A DNA stretch of 47,053 nt from Defluviitaleaceae bacterium (lineage in GTDB: Bacteria > Bacillota_I > Bacilli_A > MOL361 > Turicibacteraceae): positions 1 through 47,053 of the forward strand of contig WRKJ01000101.1 in NCBI GenBank assembly GCA_009778135.1, read 5' to 3'. The translations under genes were made by a program, and so were the position numbers. Numbering within the stretch: the first letter of the stretch is position 1; every line of letters begins with the position of its first letter. The notes beneath the pieces are model-generated. The model searched no databases. It was not told where the DNA came from and was given only the letters and a program-made list of their open reading frames with translations. Shown piece by piece: positions 5,443-23,786 of this stretch.

Positions 5443-7359
5443 ATGATGAAGCATGAAGGTATGATTAGAAAACGAACGGTTTGGTTAGGCATAGCTGTTG
5501 GTTGTTATTTTGTGGCACTTCTGATACGTTTGTTATATTTACAAGTGTTGAATCCTGAGGAATTTACAGCTCATGCAGAGGCTTTATGGTCTCGAAATTT
5601 ACCTATTGAAGGACAACGCGGTATTATTTATGATCGTCATGGAGAAATTATTGTTAATAATGTTGTGGCACCTTCGGTCATTATCATACCACGACAAGTA
5701 ACAGATGTTGATGCTGTTGCCTATTTATTGGCAGAGGTATTGGATTCAACATTTGAAGACATGTATGACCATGCAACAAATCGAGTGAATGTTGAGCGAA
5801 TTCAACCAGAAGGTCGTAAGTTAAGTCATGAGCAAGTGAGGGTCATTAAAGAGGCTAACCTCGACGGTGTCTATTTGGTTAATGATGTGATGCGTTATTA
5901 TCCACACGGGAATATGCTGGCTCATACATTGGGATTTACAGGTATTGATAATCAAGGATTAGCTGGCATTGAAGCGTTGTATAATGACTATCTCATGGGA
6001 GCAAATGGCGCATGGCAGTATTTTTCTGATGCAAAGGGACATGCATTAGAACGATTTTCAGATGTTTATGCACCGTCAGCTCGTGGGATGGACATGGTCT
6101 TAACGGTTGATGCAAGAATTCAAGAAATTATTGAGCGAGAAGCAGATAATGCGATGGCCCGTTACCGACCAGATCAGATTATGATTTTGGCAATGGATCC
6201 TCATACGGGTGCAATTTTAGGTAACACTTCTCGTCCAACATTCAATCCAGCTGCTTATCAAGCATATGATCAAGAAATTTTCAATCGAAATTTACCGATT
6301 TGGTCTACATTTGAACCTGGATCAACATTTAAAATCATGACTTATGCGGCGGCGCTTGAAGAAGGGTTAATGGCGCTCGATGATACATTTAGTTGTATTG
6401 GGCATTCCATGATTGAAGGAACGCGTATTCGAGATTGGAAAGCAGGTGGTCACGGAACTCAGACGATGTTGGAAGTCATCATGAATTCATGCAACCCAGG
6501 ATTTATGCATATTGGTGTAGAGCTTTTGGGAAAAGAACTGTTATTTGACTACATTGATGCTTTTGGTTTCCGTGAAAAGACGGGTGTAGATATGATCGGT
6601 GAAAGCCAAGGACTTATTTTTGACCCAGCAGTGATTGGACCTGTTGAAGTGGCTACTTCTGCTTTTGGTCAAGGGAATTCCATGACACCTCTGCAGCTTG
6701 TGACAGCGGTTGGATCAGTGATCAATGGTGGAAATTTAATGACACCCCACATTGTTTCTGAGATTCGGCATCCTTATACGGGAGAAGTTTTATTTGCTAG
6801 GCAGCCTGAGATTCGGCGTCAAGTGATCAGTCAAGAAACATCTGATACGATGCGCTATGTATTAGAAAACGTCGGTGCAAGAGGCAGTGGGCGTGGTGCT
6901 TTTATTGAGGGCTACCGCGTTGGTGGAAAGACGGGGACAGCTCAAAAACCATCGCCAGAAGGTGGCTATAAAGCCAATGAATATATTTTATCTTTTGTTG
7001 GTGTAGCACCTATGGATGATCCACAGATTTTAATTTATGTCGCTGTAGATAATCCAAGGGATACCATTCAATACGGTGGTGTCGTAGCAGCGCCAATTGC
7101 ACGCAAAATTTTATTGGAAGCATTGCCTTATTTAGGTGTAGAACGTCGAACAGAGCAAATTGAAAAAGCCTATATTTGGGGAGACGTTCGCTATGTTGAA
7201 GTACCAGACTATGTGGGGATGGAAAAAGCGGACATTAATGAATATACGACTTACCGTATTGAGTTTCTGGGGCAAGGAACTGTCGTGACAAGGCAACAAC
7301 CAGCTGCAGGGGCTAAGATTGCCGAAGATGGCGTGATTCGACTTTTCTTAGGAGATTAA
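5443..7359 (+). CDS. Class B penicillin-binding protein with a C-terminal PASTA domain (SpoVD/FtsI type)
   Basis: This D,D-transpeptidase cross-links peptidoglycan at the septum or spore cortex. It is 638 residues from the chosen start, with one N-terminal membrane anchor (about residues 12-35), a dimerisation domain containing GQRGIIYDRHGE, and a transpeptidase domain with all three active-site motifs: STFK near 294, SCN near 349 and KTGTAQ near 496. A single PASTA repeat near the end (EVPDYVGM onward) would sense muropeptide or stabilise the protein. The first in-frame codon is a TTG at 5431, but GGATGGTG is better placed for ATG 5443 or 5446. In many Bacillota this gene precedes murE-mraY-murD; here it follows them, separated by the repressor pair. 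SpoVD and FtsI cannot be told apart from sequence alone, and no sporulation genes are in the window. Confidence 0.93.
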   Translation: MMKHEGMIRKRTVWLGIAVGCYFVALLIRLLYLQVLNPEEFTAHAEALWSRNLPIEGQRGIIYDRHGEIIVNNVVAPSVIIIPRQVTDVDAVAYLLAEVLDSTFEDMYDHATNRVNVERIQPEGRKLSHEQVRVIKEANLDGVYLVNDVMRYYPHGNMLAHTLGFTGIDNQGLAGIEALYNDYLMGANGAWQYFSDAKGHALERFSDVYAPSARGMDMVLTVDARIQEIIEREADNAMARYRPDQIMILAMDPHTGAILGNTSRPTFNPAAYQAYDQEIFNRNLPIWSTFEPGSTFKIMTYAAALEEGLMALDDTFSCIGHSMIEGTRIRDWKAGGHGTQTMLEVIMNSCNPGFMHIGVELLGKELLFDYIDAFGFREKTGVDMIGESQGLIFDPAVIGPVEVATSAFGQGNSMTPLQLVTAVGSVINGGNLMTPHIVSEIRHPYTGEVLFARQPEIRRQVISQETSDTMRYVLENVGARGSGRGAFIEGYRVGGKTGTAQKPSPEGGYKANEYILSFVGVAPMDDPQILIYVAVDNPRDTIQYGGVVAAPIARKILLEALPYLGVERRTEQIEKAYIWGDVRYVEVPDYVGMEKADINEYTTYRIEFLGQGTVVTRQQPAAGAKIAEDGVIRLFLGD

Positions 7360-7508
7360 TTTTTTCTTGACTTTCGTGGTGGTTTACTGTAGGATGAACA
7401 AGGTAGTCTACAACGAAATAGAGAAATAGCGCTAAATATTTCAGATGATTTCAGAAAAATATTGCTTTCATATTATGAAAAAACTGGTTTATATAAAGGG
7501 TGATGAAT

Positions 7509-8534
7509 ATGGATGACAAATTATATTTTGAAGTATTAGAGAGCATTAAGCGCGAACTTCAAAATGCACAAAGCAAGGCAGTTATTAGTGCAAATGAACA
7601 TATGATAACTGCGTATTATAATACAGGAAAAATGCTCATTGAAAAAGACAGCTGGGGTTCAAAGTTCATTGAAAAGCTTGCAAAAGATTTAAAGGTAAGC
7701 TTTCCTAATGTTAAAGGATATTCTGCAACTAATCTTAGATATATGAAAAAATTTGCTAGTACCTATATTGATTTTGAAATTTTCCCACACGCCGTGGGGA
7801 AATTAGCTTGGCGTTCAAATCGTATGCTTTTAGACAAATTGAAAAATAATGAAGAACGTTTATGGTACGCCAAAAAAGCCATTGAAAATAATTGGAACAG
7901 TACGGTTTTAGAACACCAAATTGCGACCAAGTTAATTGACAGACAAGGCGATAACGTCAAGAAAGTTACAAATTATTTAGAAAAATTAGGAGATGGCTTT
8001 AGTGAACGTGTTCAAGAAATTTTTAAAGACCCCTACCTATTTGATTTTATGACGTATACTGATGGAATAATTGAAAGCGAAGTTGAAAATATTCTGATAA
8101 CGCATATTACAAAATTATTAATGGAGCTTGGTAAAGGTTTTGCTTTTGTAGGGCGACAATATCCTTTATCAGTTGGTGCAAGAGAATTTAAAGTCGATTT
8201 GTTATTTTATAACCTTGAATTGAGATGCTACGTTGTTATAGAATTAAAAACCCGACAATTTGAACCTGAGCATACTGGGAAACTGGGATTCTATATATCA
8301 GCAGTTAATAGAACATTAAAAAAGGAAACTGATAACCCAACAATTGGAATTTTATTAACTCGTGGAAAAGATAACTTGGTTGCAGAAGTTGCATTATCAC
8401 AAACTGATGCGCCAATTGGTGTAGCTGATTATAAATATTTGCAAGAAATACCGGAGTATCTAAGTAAGATTATGCCTTCTATTGAAGAAATTGAACGACG
8501 ACTTATTGATGAGAAAATTAATAACGCTCAGTAA
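7509..8534 (+). CDS. PDDEXK nuclease-domain protein, YhcG/DUF1016 family
   Basis: The protein has 341 residues. The N-terminal half (about 1-150) is the helical DUF1016 domain with SAVI-type helices and the conserved GYSATNLRYMKKFA segment. The C-terminal half is a PD-(D/E)XK fold with EFKVDLLFYN near 227 and VIELKTRQFEPEH near 246, which supplies the D...ExK catalytic set. The family is often found near restriction, phage-defence and mobile loci, and its members are presumed DNases. AAGGG lies eight bases before ATG 7509; the earlier GTG 7500 and ATG 7503 overlap that site. The gene stands alone between a cell-wall gene and pst genes, with a plausible own promoter (TTGACT-17-TAGGAT near 7368), so lateral transfer is likely. 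Confidence 0.88.
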   Translation: MDDKLYFEVLESIKRELQNAQSKAVISANEHMITAYYNTGKMLIEKDSWGSKFIEKLAKDLKVSFPNVKGYSATNLRYMKKFASTYIDFEIFPHAVGKLAWRSNRMLLDKLKNNEERLWYAKKAIENNWNSTVLEHQIATKLIDRQGDNVKKVTNYLEKLGDGFSERVQEIFKDPYLFDFMTYTDGIIESEVENILITHITKLLMELGKGFAFVGRQYPLSVGAREFKVDLLFYNLELRCYVVIELKTRQFEPEHTGKLGFYISAVNRTLKKETDNPTIGILLTRGKDNLVAEVALSQTDAPIGVADYKYLQEIPEYLSKIMPSIEEIERRLIDEKINNAQ

Positions 8535-10819: not shown

Positions 10820-11686
10820 ATGAAGAGAATTAAATTGTTATCATTATTCATGTTGGGATTTGCTGTCTTCTTAGTTGCATGTGATTCAGGGGATAACACG
10901 GGCGCTATTGCGGTTGTAAGCCGAGAGGAAGGTTCAGGTGCGCGTGGTGCATTTGAAGAATTGGTGGATGTCAATACGGAGGAAGCTAATACCATGACTG
11001 ATGCGGCTATTATTCAAAGTGGCAATGGTGTTGTTGCTGGATTTGTCGCTGATAACCAAGCTGCAATTGGTTACATCTCATTTGCAACATTTATCGAACG
11101 TGGAGATGCTTTGGTCGGTTTATATGTAGATGGTGTTGAACCTACGACAGCTAATATGTTATCAGGTGCTTATACATTGGTTCGACCATTCAACTTTGTC
11201 TATATGCCAGAAAATATCGGCATTGTTGAAGAAGCCTTTATTGCTTTTGCAGCATCTACTGATGGATTAGCAATTTTAGAAGGTTTAGGTGCGGTGGTTG
11301 ACACGAGTGGTGCAATGGCATTTCATTCATCTGATTGGGATCTGCCTGCTCAAACGATTGCTTTCGGAGGTTCGACTTCAACTGAGGCAACGGCCACAGC
11401 GCTAATGGAAGAATTCACAGCCTTGTTTCCACAAGTTGAGATCACTTACAATGCGTCAGGTTCAGGTGCTGGTATTGTCGGTGCTCAAGAAGGAACGTAT
11501 GCTTTAGGCTTCGCTTCTCGTGAGATTCGTGATACGGAACTTGAAAGTGGCATTCATGTTGTACAGTATTGCGTTGACGGCATTGTCATTGTCGTTAATC
11601 CAGCGAATACAGTAACAAATTTGACTGTTGAGCAAATTAGAGCGATCTATTTAGGAGAGGTGACAGATTGGTCTGAAGTTCAATAA
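10820..11686 (+). CDS. pstS: Phosphate-binding lipoprotein PstS with circularly permuted domain order
   Basis: PstS captures phosphate outside the membrane and delivers it to PstCA. The 288-residue product has a lipoprotein signal ending in the lipobox LVAC (Cys near 21). After the Cys the order is unusual. It starts with the segment normally in the middle of PstS (VVSREEGSGARGAFEEL, then AIGYISFATF, VDGVEPTTANM, LVRPFNFVY). It continues into the normal N-terminal half (IAFGGSTSTEATATALMEEF, NASGSGAGIVGAQEG, GFASREIRDTE) and ends at VEQIRAIYLGEVTDWSEV, which in standard PstS leads directly into the VVSRE segment. Both phosphate-binding loops (GGSTST, GSGAG) and the SREEGSGAR loop are kept, so binding is plausible. 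The total length is that of one normal PstS. The gene is controlled by the PhoP box upstream, and an attenuator-like hairpin separates it from pstC2. Confidence 0.88.
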   Translation: MKRIKLLSLFMLGFAVFLVACDSGDNTGAIAVVSREEGSGARGAFEELVDVNTEEANTMTDAAIIQSGNGVVAGFVADNQAAIGYISFATFIERGDALVGLYVDGVEPTTANMLSGAYTLVRPFNFVYMPENIGIVEEAFIAFAASTDGLAILEGLGAVVDTSGAMAFHSSDWDLPAQTIAFGGSTSTEATATALMEEFTALFPQVEITYNASGSGAGIVGAQEGTYALGFASREIRDTELESGIHVVQYCVDGIVIVVNPANTVTNLTVEQIRAIYLGEVTDWSEVQ

Positions 11687-11782: not shown

Positions 11783-12688
11783 ATGGATGTAGAGATAAAA
11801 TTAACTAAAAAACGTGCCTTTTCTGAGAAGTTGTTCCATGCATTATTTTTATCCGCTGGTCTTTTTGCTGTGATATGTGTTACGGCGATTATTATTTTGA
11901 TTTTCACACGTGGTTCAAGGCCATTTATGCCTGGGAATGAATATGGGACGTATCACTTTTTTAACTTTCTTACTGGAACGTTTTGGCGTCCAGCTTTTGG
12001 AGAGTATGGTGTAGGCTATATGATTATTGCTTCTCTTTTTGCGACATTTGGCGCAATGCTTTTGGGTGTTCCAATTGGTATTTTAACCGCTGTTTTTATC
12101 GCAGAAGTTGCACCATCATGGCTTGCGAAAATCATGCAACCAACAGTAGAGTTGCTTGCTGCAATTCCTTCAGTTTTATATGGCGTTTTTGGATTTGCAG
12201 TTATCGTCCCAATGATTAACAATTTCACACCGAATCCAACAGGGTATTCATTAATGGCGGTTATTTTAGTTTTGACGATTATGGTCTTACCTTCAATTGT
12301 CGCCATTTCAGTAACGAGCTTACGTGCAGTTCCGACACACTATAAAGAAGGTTCATTGGCGTTAGGCGCCTCACACATCCAAACCATTTTCAAAGTTTTG
12401 ATACCGGGTGCAAAATCTGGTATTTTAACGGCAGTTGTGCTCGGTGTAGGACGTGCGATTGGAGAAACCATGGCAGTTATTTTAGTAGCTGGAAACCCAG
12501 AGAGTGGTGTTCCAACTTCAATTTTCGATCCGGTTCGTTTGTTGACAACTAATATCGTACTTGAACAAGGATATGCAACAGGTTTACAAGCACAAATGTT
12601 GTTTGCAACAGTGATTGTCTTATTTACGTTTATTCTAGCGATCAATTTAACCCTTTCAAAAATTAGGAAAAAGGCGGTTCGAATCTAA
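11783..12688 (+). CDS. pstC: Phosphate ABC transporter permease PstC (second copy)
   Basis: This is a 301-residue membrane subunit, clearly paralogous to the PstC at 8899. Shared segments include GYMIIASLFATFGAML, LLAAIPSVLYGVFGFA, EGSLALGASHIQTIFKVL and GVGRAIGETMAVILVAGNP. About six helices are visible. The stop of pstC2 shares one base with the pstA2 start (TAATG), so the two are translationally coupled. GAGGTAG stands nine bases before the start. It belongs to the PhoP-controlled pstS-pstC2-pstA2-pstB unit. Confidence 0.94.
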   Translation: MDVEIKLTKKRAFSEKLFHALFLSAGLFAVICVTAIIILIFTRGSRPFMPGNEYGTYHFFNFLTGTFWRPAFGEYGVGYMIIASLFATFGAMLLGVPIGILTAVFIAEVAPSWLAKIMQPTVELLAAIPSVLYGVFGFAVIVPMINNFTPNPTGYSLMAVILVLTIMVLPSIVAISVTSLRAVPTHYKEGSLALGASHIQTIFKVLIPGAKSGILTAVVLGVGRAIGETMAVILVAGNPESGVPTSIFDPVRLLTTNIVLEQGYATGLQAQMLFATVIVLFTFILAINLTLSKIRKKAVRI

Positions 12689-13833
12689 TGCAAAAAAGAA
12701 GAATAAGCGATTACTTAATGACTGCTTTAATTTGGCTTTCAGCGACAGCGACAGCGAGTATTCTGTTAATCATTGTCGGGTTTATTTTTTCAAATGGTTG
12801 GCGTTTAATTTCACCTACTTTTTTAACACGTGAGGCTAATGACACATTACGTATTGTTAATTTTGAGAGTGAGTCGATGGTAACCGCCGAGATTATGGGT
12901 GACTTATTGGTTGTTGAAGGCATTGGATTAACCCTTGAACGGGATGAAACTTACGGAATTAAAGTTAATCATGTGGCTGCTGACGCTCCAGGACGCCATG
13001 CATTAGACAATGCAGGAGAAATCTTTCCGATTCGTCGTGGTCAAGTTTTAGAAGGCATTAATGAAGAACGAATTCATGGTGGAACAACCCTTGATGAGAT
13101 TAGCACGATGTTTGACAATCATTCGACATTTACATTCCGTATTCGACAGCTTGGCGGGGGTATTTTTCCGATGCTGATTTCAACATTAATGTTGATTTTC
13201 ACGACTTTGTTGATTGCAACACCCCTTGGGGTTCTTGCTGCCATCTATATGGTTGAATATGCAAAACAAGGACGTATTGTTAACATGATCCGATTTGCAA
13301 TTGAAATTTTGGCTGGCTTACCATCTGTTGTTCATGGCCTATTTGGCATGTTATTTTTCTCAAGAATTTTAGGATTGGGCATGTCAGTCCTATCAGGGGC
13401 TTTAACCCTGACAGTTTTACTCTTACCTATTATGATTAGATCAACAGAAGAATCTTTAAAAACAGTACCAAATAGTTATCGTGAGGCATCTTTGGGACTT
13501 GGAGCGAATAAAATTCAAACCATAAGGAAAATTATTCTGCCAAGTGCACTTCCTGGCATTACAGTGGGTATTATTCTTTCAATTGGTCGAATTGTAGGAG
13601 AATCAGCTGCGCTACTTTTTACACTTGGAACGTTTGCTCGAATACCTGTGAATCCGGCAACTGGCAATTTATCCATTTTCGAAGCTGGCGCAACTTTGAC
13701 ACTACGTGCATTTATAGAGGTACAAGAATTTGGGAATATTGAAATGGCATCAGCCATTGGAATTGTTATTTTAGTTATTGTCTTTACCCTAAATTTATGT
13801 TCGAAATTAATGACCAAGAAGTTTGGGAAGTAA
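12688..13833 (+). CDS. pstA: Phosphate ABC transporter permease PstA with an inserted PDZ-like domain
   Basis: The 381-residue protein is about 100 longer than a normal PstA. The first helix (about 12-36) and the C-terminal permease part (from LGGGIFPMLISTLML near 155 on, with LAGLPSVVHGLFGML, YREASLGLGANKIQTI and GRIVGESAALLFTLGTF) are standard. Residues about 50-153 are extra and lie outside the membrane. They read like a PDZ domain: YGIKVNHVAADAPG for the ligand-binding loop and strand, IRRGQVLEGINEERIHGGTT for the central strand pair, then LDEISTMFD and FTFRIRQ. A PDZ module in this place could bind the C-terminus or a loop of PstS or another envelope protein. It lies between pstC2 and pstB. 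The permease identity is secure; the PDZ call rests on pattern only. Confidence 0.9.
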   Translation: MQKRRISDYLMTALIWLSATATASILLIIVGFIFSNGWRLISPTFLTREANDTLRIVNFESESMVTAEIMGDLLVVEGIGLTLERDETYGIKVNHVAADAPGRHALDNAGEIFPIRRGQVLEGINEERIHGGTTLDEISTMFDNHSTFTFRIRQLGGGIFPMLISTLMLIFTTLLIATPLGVLAAIYMVEYAKQGRIVNMIRFAIEILAGLPSVVHGLFGMLFFSRILGLGMSVLSGALTLTVLLLPIMIRSTEESLKTVPNSYREASLGLGANKIQTIRKIILPSALPGITVGIILSIGRIVGESAALLFTLGTFARIPVNPATGNLSIFEAGATLTLRAFIEVQEFGNIEMASAIGIVILVIVFTLNLCSKLMTKKFGK

Positions 13834-13894
13834 ATAAAAGTGAAAGTCGTTGTACTCACTCGTACAAATCGTACAAAGAAAGGCGGTTCAAGAA

Positions 13895-14650
13895 ATGGAA
13901 ACCAAGTTTAAGATACAAGATTTGAATTTATTTTATGGAGATTTCCAAGCACTTCATAATATTACCCTAGATTTATATGAAAATAAAGTGACGGCTTTAA
14001 TTGGTCCTTCAGGTTGTGGAAAGTCAACGTTTTTGCGTACGCTCAATCGGATGAATGACTTGATTGACAATGTTAAGATTACAGGAAAAATCTTATTAGA
14101 TGGTCGGAAGGATATTTACGAAAAAATGGATGTGATTGGCCTTCGTACCCGTGTTGGCATGGTGTTTCAAAAGCCGAATCCATTTCCGATGAGTATTTAT
14201 GATAATGTTGCTTATGGGCCTCGTTGTCAAGGGCTTAAAGATAAGAAGAAATTAGATGAGATCGTTGAAGAAGCTTTACGTGGTGCAGCGCTTTGGGATG
14301 AAGTAAAGGATAAGCTCAATAAGTCAGGCATGTCACTTTCTGGTGGACAACAGCAAAGATTATGCATTGCACGGGCAATCGCTATGGCGCCTGAAGTTAT
14401 TTTAATGGATGAACCGACATCGGCGTTGGATCCCATTGCGACTCAAAAAGTTGAACAATTGATGGGTAAATTGAAAGAAAAGTACACCATTATTATTGTG
14501 ACTCACTCGATGCAACAAGCAGCTAGAATCTCTGACAAGACAGCCTTCTTCTTAATGGGAGAAGTGATTGAATTTGGAGACACCGATAAAATTTTTACCA
14601 ACCCTGATAAAAAAGAGACAGAAGATTACATCACAGGTAGATTCGGATAA
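13895..14650 (+). CDS. pstB: Phosphate ABC transporter ATP-binding protein PstB
   Basis: PstB is the ATPase that powers phosphate import. It has Walker [11 protein letters not shown]-loop [10 protein letters not shown], signature [16 protein letters not shown], Walker [14 protein letters not shown] and switch [14 protein letters not shown], in 251 residues (normal). The ATG at 13895 is preferred over an in-frame start at 13850 because AGGCGG lies before it and the family begins at this point. It is the only PstB in the window, so it likely serves both permease pairs. The leader just upstream carries the short repeat CGTACAAAT. Confidence 0.96.
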
Positions 14651-14798: not shown

Positions 14799-15467
14799 AT
14801 GGTCGTAGATTCTCCAATCGATGCAGTTTATAATGAATTACTAAATATGGTTAAAGAATTGTCTGATGCAACAATTCGTATGTATGAAAAAACCTTGGAA
14901 ACATTGAATTCTCTTGACACACAGCGTGCACTTTGTATTATTAAATCTGATACAGAAATTGACACCATGGAGGAAGAGTTGATTGAATTTGCAACGATAC
15001 AAATTGTTCGACAGCAACCTGTTGCAACAGATTTACGTAAGATTTTGATGATTATTCGTTTAGCGAGAGAATATGAACGTATTGCAGACTATACTGAAAA
15101 TATTGCTGAATATATTATTTTAATTAAAGAAAACGAATCTTTGGATCATTATGAGAAAAATGTTGATAAGTTTTCGAAAATGATTGAAATTATCATTGAA
15201 ATGCTAAATTTGGTTATCGAAGGGTTGTTAGAAGAGAACAAAGCAAAAATTAAGGAAGCAGCTGACATGGACAACAGGGTTGATACATTTTATCATGAAG
15301 TCATGGAATCGTTAATTCAACATATTCGTATTGTCGATGGAAAAGTATTTGGAACCGCTCATGCGATTTTGATTAATAAGTACTTAGAACGTGCAGGAGA
15401 TCATGTCACGAATATTGCTGAGGAAATGTTGTACGCACTAAAAGGAAGACGGTATAACTTGGGTTAA
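14799..15467 (+). CDS. phoU: Phosphate signalling regulator PhoU
   Basis: PhoU is a cytoplasmic helical-bundle protein that restrains Pst transport and PhoR signalling when phosphate is plentiful. The 222-residue product has the two family repeats with their metal-binding motifs: REYERIADYTENIAEY near 95 and LERAGDHVTNIAEEM near 200. AGAGGTG precedes the ATG. The gene closes the pst block; a terminator and a dispersed repeat follow. Confidence 0.95.
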   Translation: MVVDSPIDAVYNELLNMVKELSDATIRMYEKTLETLNSLDTQRALCIIKSDTEIDTMEEELIEFATIQIVRQQPVATDLRKILMIIRLAREYERIADYTENIAEYIILIKENESLDHYEKNVDKFSKMIEIIIEMLNLVIEGLLEENKAKIKEAADMDNRVDTFYHEVMESLIQHIRIVDGKVFGTAHAILINKYLERAGDHVTNIAEEMLYALKGRRYNLG

Positions 15468-21581: not shown

Positions 21582-23056
21582 GTGAGAAAATATATAAACG
21601 AATATGAAAGGAATCAAGAACGAATAAAAGAAGCGTCAATGTTAGAGGAAAAAGAAGCGATTATCATTGAATCATCAAAGAAGCCGACATATGATACAAG
21701 TAATCGAAAGAGATATAAGATAACGCCAGAAGTAGAAGAAATCATAAATGATTGTTTGGATAAAAATGAACTCAAAAAGAAGAATGGTAATCGTAAGCTG
21801 ATCATGAAGCGCATAGATATCCACGAACATCTTAAAACATTGGGATTTAATCTGAGTTATCGTACAGTGTGTAGTTATGTTGAGACCAGGATTAAAAAAA
21901 GAAAGAGGCCTATATTAGACAAAGTTATCCACCAGGTATTAGTGCAGAATTTGATTGGGGTGAGGTTACATTAACGATTGATGAATTAGGCGGTGAGCAT
22001 CGAATGAAGATTGGCGTGTTTAGCCTCAAAAACAGCGATTATCGATTTGCTCGTTTGTACACCCATGAAAATACAGAATGCTTCTTAGATGTGCATCGCC
22101 AATTTTTTGAACACATTGAAGGCGTTCCAAAGGAAATCGTTTATGATAATGCATTGGTTCAGGTAAAGCGATTTGTAGGTGGTGAAAAAAAACCAACTGA
22201 AGCAGTTATCCGTTTGTCGTCCTATTATGGATATGAGCCAAGGTACACCAATTATTTTCGTGGTAATGAAAAAGGTCATGTGGAGCGAAGTGTTGAGATA
22301 GTGCGCCGTAAGGCTTATTGCACCCAACAATGCTTTGCCACAATTGCTGAGGCGGAGACTGCATTAATAAAGGCAATCAATAAGAATAATGCAAGTATCA
22401 AGCAACGAACTGGCATTACGGCAGACACTGCATTTGCTTACGAAAGCGAGTTTCTAATGCCAGCTAGAATACCACTGGATGTTAGTGTCTTTATGGAAGT
22501 GAGTGTGAATAAGTACAGCTTAATTTATGTGGATACCAATTTCTACTCTGTACCAGATTTTCTAAGTGAGAAAAAGGTAATGGTAAGGAAATATCCAAAT
22601 CGAATTAGGGTCTACTACAATGATGAGTTCTTATTTGAAACCAAACGTGTTCTTAAGGGTCGAAATCAGTATCAAATAGATATTAACCACTATTTAGAAA
22701 CATTAAAAAAGAAGCCTGGTGCTATCACACATAGCTTGGCACTAAAACAAGCTAAACCCTGGCTTCAAAAAATATTCCATGATTATTATGGACAAAAGCC
22801 ACGGGATTTCATTACACTTTTGGAATTAATTCAAAAAAATTCCTTACATGACGTTCAGGTTGCAGTCAAGAAATTGGAGATAAAGAAATTGCCTATTGAT
22901 AATTCTTATATTTATAATGAATTAATGGATGAAAGTGCACCAATATCAGCACCTAATGAAGGTTATGATGCGATACACAAGGCATGTGAAGAACAGCTGC
23001 TTGCGATTTCATCATTATATGGTTTTGGAGGTGTTTCAAATGAGCGAGTCCATTAA
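21582..23056 (+). pseudogene. istA: IS21 transposase IstA, frameshifted
   Basis: IstA is the DDE transposase of IS21 elements. The first part (21582-21974) carries the end of the HTH (TVRKYINEYERNQ), and the second (open through 22004-23056) the catalytic core: ISAEFDWGEV for the first Asp, PKEIVYDNALVQV for the second, and the ENDKGH-like region FRGNEKGHVERSVE for the Glu. The frame changes by -1 at a run of seven A near 21895-21901; across it the protein would read KKEAYIRQSYPPG. A further one-base loss near 21560 separates SGKIVK from TGLSRPTV in the HTH. The A run could allow slippage, but two breaks make a dead gene more likely. istB starts inside its 3' end. Confidence 0.88.
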
Positions 23057-23786
23057 GGTACTATCAACACAATTACGCTTGCCCTATTTGAAAGAAAATG
23101 CTCACCTTCATCTTGAGCAAGCAAGATTAGAGAACAAATCATATGAAGATTTTTTGATAGAAATCCTTGAGTATGAGATAGCGTTGAAAAATCAAAATAG
23201 CGTAAAAAATAGGATTAAACGTGCGAAGTTCCCTTATCACAAGACATTAGATGAATTGGTCATTGATGAATTACCTGATGGTGCTAAACAGCAATATCAG
23301 AGCTTGAGAAGCCTTGATTTTATCAGTTCTCATCAGAACATTATTTTAGCTGGAAACCCTGGAACGGGTAAAACCCACATCTCAATTGGACTGGGCTTAA
23401 AAGCTTGTATGGCAGGTTATAATGTTTATTTCACTCATGTTCCAGATTTGATTATCAGACTCAAGGAGGCTCAGAACGAGCGTACATTAGGCTCACTTAA
23501 AAAGCGATTTGAAAAATATGAACTCATCATCTTAGATGAACTTGGCTATATCTCTTTTGATAAAGAAGGTGCTGAGTTATTGTTTAACCTTATCTCCAGT
23601 CGTACTGAATGTGCAGCTACTATATTCACAACTAATCTATCATTTGACCGATGGGATGAAATCTTTCATGACAAAGTCCTTACTGCCGCAATAGTCGATC
23701 GAATTACACATCATTCTTATGTGATTAATATGAATGGTGAAAGTTACAGATTGAAGCAGTCCACTAGCTTAAAAAGAACAATTTAA
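23040..23786 (+). CDS. istB: IS21 helper ATPase IstB
   Basis: IstB is the AAA+ DnaC-like ATPase that assembles with IstA for target selection. The 248-residue product has Walker A LAGNPGTGKTHIS, Walker B LIILDELGYISFD, sensor 1 FTTNLSFDRW and an arginine-finger region AAIVDRITHHSYVI. GGAGGTG at 23027 sets the ATG at 23040, overlapping the istA end; an upstream in-frame ATG at 22929 lies inside istA coding sequence and lacks a site. It appears intact and could serve related elements elsewhere. Confidence 0.95.
   Translation: MSESIKVLSTQLRLPYLKENAHLHLEQARLENKSYEDFLIEILEYEIALKNQNSVKNRIKRAKFPYHKTLDELVIDELPDGAKQQYQSLRSLDFISSHQNIILAGNPGTGKTHISIGLGLKACMAGYNVYFTHVPDLIIRLKEAQNERTLGSLKKRFEKYELIILDELGYISFDKEGAELLFNLISSRTECAATIFTTNLSFDRWDEIFHDKVLTAAIVDRITHHSYVINMNGESYRLKQSTSLKRTI

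Follow-up and report, generated by a model that had tools for sequence, protein, structure and literature searches.

A gene for a phosphate-binding lipoprotein in a Defluviitaleaceae bacterium raised the question of whether PstS can carry its two halves in reversed order and whether such an order is peculiar to one genome. The gene lies in a 47,053-nucleotide stretch of DNA (contig WRKJ01000101.1), referred to here as the window. The ORF at 10820–11686 (+) encodes a 288-aa lipoprotein with the lipobox LVAC and Cys21, and its mature part consists of the second half and then the first half of a normal PstS. A lipoprotein signal peptide (aa 1–20, ending in FLVA before Cys21; 10820–10879, +) was assigned from the sequence, and the codon of Cys21, the predicted lipidation site, occupies 10880–10882 (+). 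Cys21 was invariant across one alignment (A1), and only six residues lead from it to the second half, hereafter B (aa 28–165, beginning GAIAVVSREEGSGAR; 10901–11314, +), which was delimited by phmmer and an HMM half-scan of relatives. B includes the phosphate loop SGAR (aa 39–42; 10934–10945, +), in which an alignment of 171 sequences placed Ala41 at the position of a threonine. A new linker within lobe 1 (aa 166–176; 11315–11347, +) connects the old C terminus to the old N terminus, followed by the first half, A, which was delimited by phmmer (aa 177–288, AQTIAFGGSTS to TDWSEVQ; 11348–11683, +) and contains the phosphate loop GSTS (aa 184–187; 11369–11380, +). G184, S185, and S187 of this loop were invariant in 134 permuted sequences. 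The standard boundary between halves falls one residue before the end of the ORF, and the inter-half linker measures 8 to 22 aa in permuted forms compared with 4 to 6 aa in standard forms.

Profile searches returned the protein in two exchanged pieces. The Pfam family PBP_like_2 (PF12849) was matched in two stretches at 100.4 bits, above the gathering score of 27, and the best stretch aligned residues 178–286 with profile positions 10–125. In the whole-genome search, profile positions 10–125 fell on the C-terminal side of the protein and positions 129–265 on the N-terminal side, so that the family model begins in the C-terminal part of the protein and ends in its N-terminal part. The PstS subfamily model TIGR02136, which is built in the standard, collinear order, also matched in two stretches and gave 151.3 bits, below its curated score of 206.6, presumably because of the two-piece match. 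Such a shortfall is expected for a permuted sequence, and the protein was therefore filed as a permuted PstS, outside the standard-order model.

The same pattern was obtained with phmmer against the PDB. The standard chains 4Q8R, 4GD5, and 1TWY each aligned with the native sequence in two swapped stretches; for 4Q8R, residues 24–152 matched the C-terminal half of the chain (positions 114–236, 74.3 bits) and residues 179–287 matched its N-terminal half (positions 5–113, 67.0 bits). In contrast, 4H1X aligned with the native order in a single stretch (residues 27–287 to positions 8–264, 109 bits). When the halves were reordered as first plus second, 4Q8R aligned in one stretch (153 bits, E 7e-44), as did 1TWY (118 bits), whereas 4H1X split in two. 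This reciprocal behavior is what circular permutation predicts, and it bears out the proposal in the original prediction that the protein runs from the second half to the first.

To characterize the fold, an AlphaFold2 model was built from an alignment of 24 relatives. The model had a mean pLDDT of 91.4 and a pTM of 0.83, with most of the mature domain above 95 and poor values only around the signal peptide, and it formed a complete two-lobe domain with confidence. This outcome agrees with the original prediction of a single domain pair and excludes two incomplete halves, which had been named in advance as evidence against it. In a Foldseek search of the PDB, which aligns in sequence order, 4H1X ranked first (E 3e-28, TM 0.79/0.88, 265 columns) and no other solved structure was near; the standard structures 4GD5 and 4Q8R aligned over only 128 columns (TM 0.34–0.40). 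The protein thus matched 4H1X collinearly both in sequence, over the whole mature protein, and in fold. A search of a viral fold library with the model gave no relevant match.

The original prediction knew of no described PstS with this order, but 4H1X, released on 2012-10-17, is PstS SP_2084 of Streptococcus pneumoniae, which has the same half order over its full length and the same fold (TM 0.88 on the target). Like the window protein, SP_2084 is the lipoprotein of a phosphate ABC transporter. The two share 31% identity and differ in the second phosphate loop, which reads SGT in 4H1X and SGA in the window protein; moreover, S. pneumoniae has a second PstS, whereas the window's genome has only the permuted one. 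In the literature SP_2084 goes under the name pstS and the function of a phosphate transport binding protein, and phosphate-responsive production and a role in penicillin resistance are cited for it (PMC11075461, PMC6581856). Literature searches, some of them directed at permutation in PstS or in binding proteins, turned up no description of it in the open literature, to which they were largely confined. The permuted kind has been solved structurally since 2012, yet has apparently gone without comment.

Compared with the standard clostridial protein PBP-1 of Clostridium perfringens (4Q8R/4GD5), the window protein showed 40% identity half by half, with the phosphate-ligand arginine and the loops conserved. 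The order is opposite: PBP-1 has the first half and then the second, with its N terminus on lobe 1. To locate the cut, the published lobes of CpPstS were used, in which residues 24–111 and 279–324 form the N-terminal lobe and residues 112–278 the C-terminal lobe, and Pro169 is equated with Arg125 of 4Q8R (PMC12421899). Arg35 of the window protein aligns with Arg125 of 4Q8R and is hence equivalent to Pro169, and the cut lies about seven residues before Arg35, in the loop preceding the VVSRE strand. Since Pro169 is within 112–278, the cut falls inside the C-terminal lobe (lobe 2). A changed set of strands crossing the hinge had been anticipated, but a cut at this place would leave both crossings covalent: they should survive the permutation, with only the termini moving. 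The junction of 4 to 6 residues between the halves of standard forms is open in permuted forms and makes their termini, and the old C and N termini, both in lobe 1, are joined by the linker of about 11 residues. The N-terminal lobe (lobe 1) would thereby become one continuous chain segment, and the lipid anchor would shift from lobe 1 to lobe 2, in line with the new anchor position that had been proposed. With both hinge strands intact, a normal Venus-flytrap action is plausible, in which phosphate would be bound between the GSTS and SG(T/A)R loops and delivered to PstCA by a protein whose lipid tethers lobe 2, not lobe 1, to the membrane.

A database search for the same order, which had been suggested at the outset, yielded 126 single-gene B-A loci and 30 A-B loci in a set that was gathered mostly with a permuted query. 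The lipobox pattern was present in 114 of the 126 permuted loci, as in the window gene. Among 198 genomes of the window's class, 82 gave matches. Of these, 67 had one or more matches covering the greater part of the query in the order seen in the window, and 15 had half-matches in the standard order only, a count that was made with the permuted query and under-represents standard forms. In Bacillota, the permuted order was found in Turicibacter, Streptococcus, Enterococcus, Aerococcus, Granulicatella, Gemmiger, Agathobaculum, Peptoniphilus, Anaerococcus, and Lachnospiraceae. It also occurred in at least five other phyla, with examples in Treponema, Helicobacter anseris, Slackia, Mailhella, and a member of Synergistaceae. 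Some of these genomes are metagenome bins, and complete genomes are also included. Several named genomes, such as those of H. anseris, Granulicatella seriolae, and Gemmiger formicilis, had the permuted form only, whereas the streptococci tested and Enterococcus timonensis had both forms. The permuted PstS is thus a common variant of gut and oral bacteria and not a one-off. The nearest named kin was Turicibacter (L035, identical in the match to family member G065). The PstS proteins of the Turicibacter family (L003–L007 and L035) are permuted, stand in the same pst operon order, and share 54 to 57% identity with the window protein over the compared columns; they differ from it in having Thr in the SGT loop and in lacking, within the stretches examined, an additional PstCA pair upstream.

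The trees were compatible with either one or two origins of the rearrangement. One reading is that permuted forms arose twice with the same cut, in a Turicibacter/uncultured Bacilli lineage and in a Clostridia/Streptococcus lineage; this concerns only the origin and is compatible with the protein being a permuted PstS. In a careful tree of 35 rows, two permuted clades (support 100/100 and 93/89) were separated by standard forms and 0% of bootstraps had one permuted clade; furthermore, the window protein is closer in identity to the standard 4Q8R (40%) than to the permuted 4H1X (31%). However, the AU test did not reject a single clade in this tree (p 0.19). In a tree of the reordered halves with 106 rows, there were two order changes compared with about 30 in shuffles, and a search constrained to keep all permuted rows in one clade found a tree better by 15.7 lnL than the unconstrained one (p-AU 0.70). 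We consider two origins a tentative reading, somewhat less probable than its opposite. A shared linker motif was considered as a sign of one origin and set aside, since a similar motif occurred in 9 of 30 standard forms and was uninformative.

The likely route to the permuted order would be a duplication of pstS, adjacent or fused, followed by loss of the outer halves. Adjacent standard duplicates were found at three loci (L125, L126, and L133), and a fused A-B-A-B ORF was found at 5853–7344 of an Anaerolineae contig (L083, Chloroflexota), where it runs off the contig end; the proposed intermediates therefore exist. That A-B-A-B ORF comes from Chloroflexota, outside the direct line, which weakens the case for the duplication-and-loss route. 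Fused permuted proteins of the B-A-B-A type, about 590 to 680 aa in one ORF, were observed in several Bacilli families (L020, L025, and L135–L137). They were rejected as ancestors because the copies within each protein were mutually nearest, indicating later duplications. Taken together, the adjacent, A-B-A-B, and B-A-B-A duplicates indicate that the PstS family does undergo the kind of duplication from which a permutation can start. Two permuted pstS genes also stand side by side at the head of one pst operon in a related genus (G056; L154, 4493–6499).

Both phosphate loops had been expected to be kept, and both are present, but the second reads SGA instead of the usual SGT. R35, S39, G40, S185, S187, S233, and D253 showed no variation among 134 permuted sequences and were nearly invariant in standard ones, and all seven ligand positions are kept in the window protein. 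The SGT threonine was found in 131 of the 134 permuted and 32 of 37 standard sequences. Among all 171, only the window protein has Ala at this position (codon GCG, 10940–10942); the other two variants among permuted forms are Ser, both in family members that are its nearest relatives. In CpPstS, the side chain and backbone NH of the equivalent Thr175 both hydrogen-bond phosphate (PMC12421899). Affinity or ligand could thus differ owing to Ala41, and the permuted protein might have lost or changed its phosphate binding, for example toward lower affinity or another oxyanion, a reading with which a second, orphan PstC-PstA pair in the genome (8899–10628) would fit. We regard this reading as unlikely: apart from Ala41, every ligand position examined is conserved, Ala41 itself should still supply the backbone NH donor, and the protein is the sole PstS in the genome, with the sole PstB and PhoU adjoining. 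We expect binding that is weaker but not absent, and this particular gene most probably functions as an ordinary PstS.

The genomic context accords with that function. The ORF is the first gene of a pstSCAB-phoU operon, in which it is followed by PstC (11783–12688, +; TIGR02138, 242.7 bits, cut-off 196.45) and PstA (12688–13833, +; TIGR00974, 248 bits, cut-off 193.45, with the match only from residue 153), the permease partners, by the PstB ATPase (13850–14650, +; TIGR00972, 424.6 bits, the only PstB over the cut-off in the genome), and by PhoU (14799–15467, +; TIGR02135, 150.5 bits, cut-off 130.25), all four exceeding their NCBIfam cut-offs. This order is common to Turicibacter and relatives, Monoglobus, and Treponema. 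The window's genome is 97% complete, and the permuted protein was the one PstS-like protein found in it. We are highly confident that the gene is the PstS of a pstSCAB-phoU operon of the Turicibacter family, belonging to one large permuted lineage or to two. The other counterevidence named in advance, a tandem pstS-pstS gene misjoined by an assembly or sequencing error, can be discarded almost completely: adjacent and fused duplicates do occur in relatives (L125, L126, L133, and L083), but the same order, cut, and lipobox recur in more than 120 loci, complete genomes among them, the crystal structure 4H1X has the same order, and the two halves are fused in frame within a single ORF.

Standard-order models such as TIGR02136 score the permuted form below their cut-off, and two annotated permuted examples were named only "substrate-binding domain-containing protein", suggesting that a common type of PstS is under-named. 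The permuted form further provides a natural experiment on whether docking on the transporter depends on which side of the binding protein carries the tether. A wider proposal would be that two independent permutations occurred at the same loop, that many Bacillota, and some members of other phyla, have come to rely on the permuted form as their sole phosphate-binding protein, and that the anchor shift to lobe 2 was selected for a changed presentation to PstCA; as a whole, we hold this to be improbable.

Further features were observed around the operon. The extra PstC-PstA pair lies just upstream of pstS, is about 50% identical to the downstream pair, and has no PstS or PstB of its own; it was not found beside pstS in a genome of the same genus (G074, L193). 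In the PstA at 12688–13833, an additional stretch of about 90 residues on the N-terminal side separates the first transmembrane segment from the transporter domain; this extra segment is common to Turicibacteraceae and G053 and was lacking in the other PstA proteins examined. A link between this segment and the permutation was rejected, as the segment is absent beside permuted PstS in Streptococcus, Aerococcus, Aedoeadaptatus, and Agathobaculum, and although a PDZ domain was suspected in it by eye, Pfam returned no match at E 0.1. A YhcG-type PDDEXK nuclease (DUF1016_N and YhcG_C) is encoded at 7500–8534, flanked by a penicillin-binding protein gene and the pst cluster, and two overlapping ORFs at 22004–23786 resemble, by eye, an IS21-type transposase and its ATPase helper.
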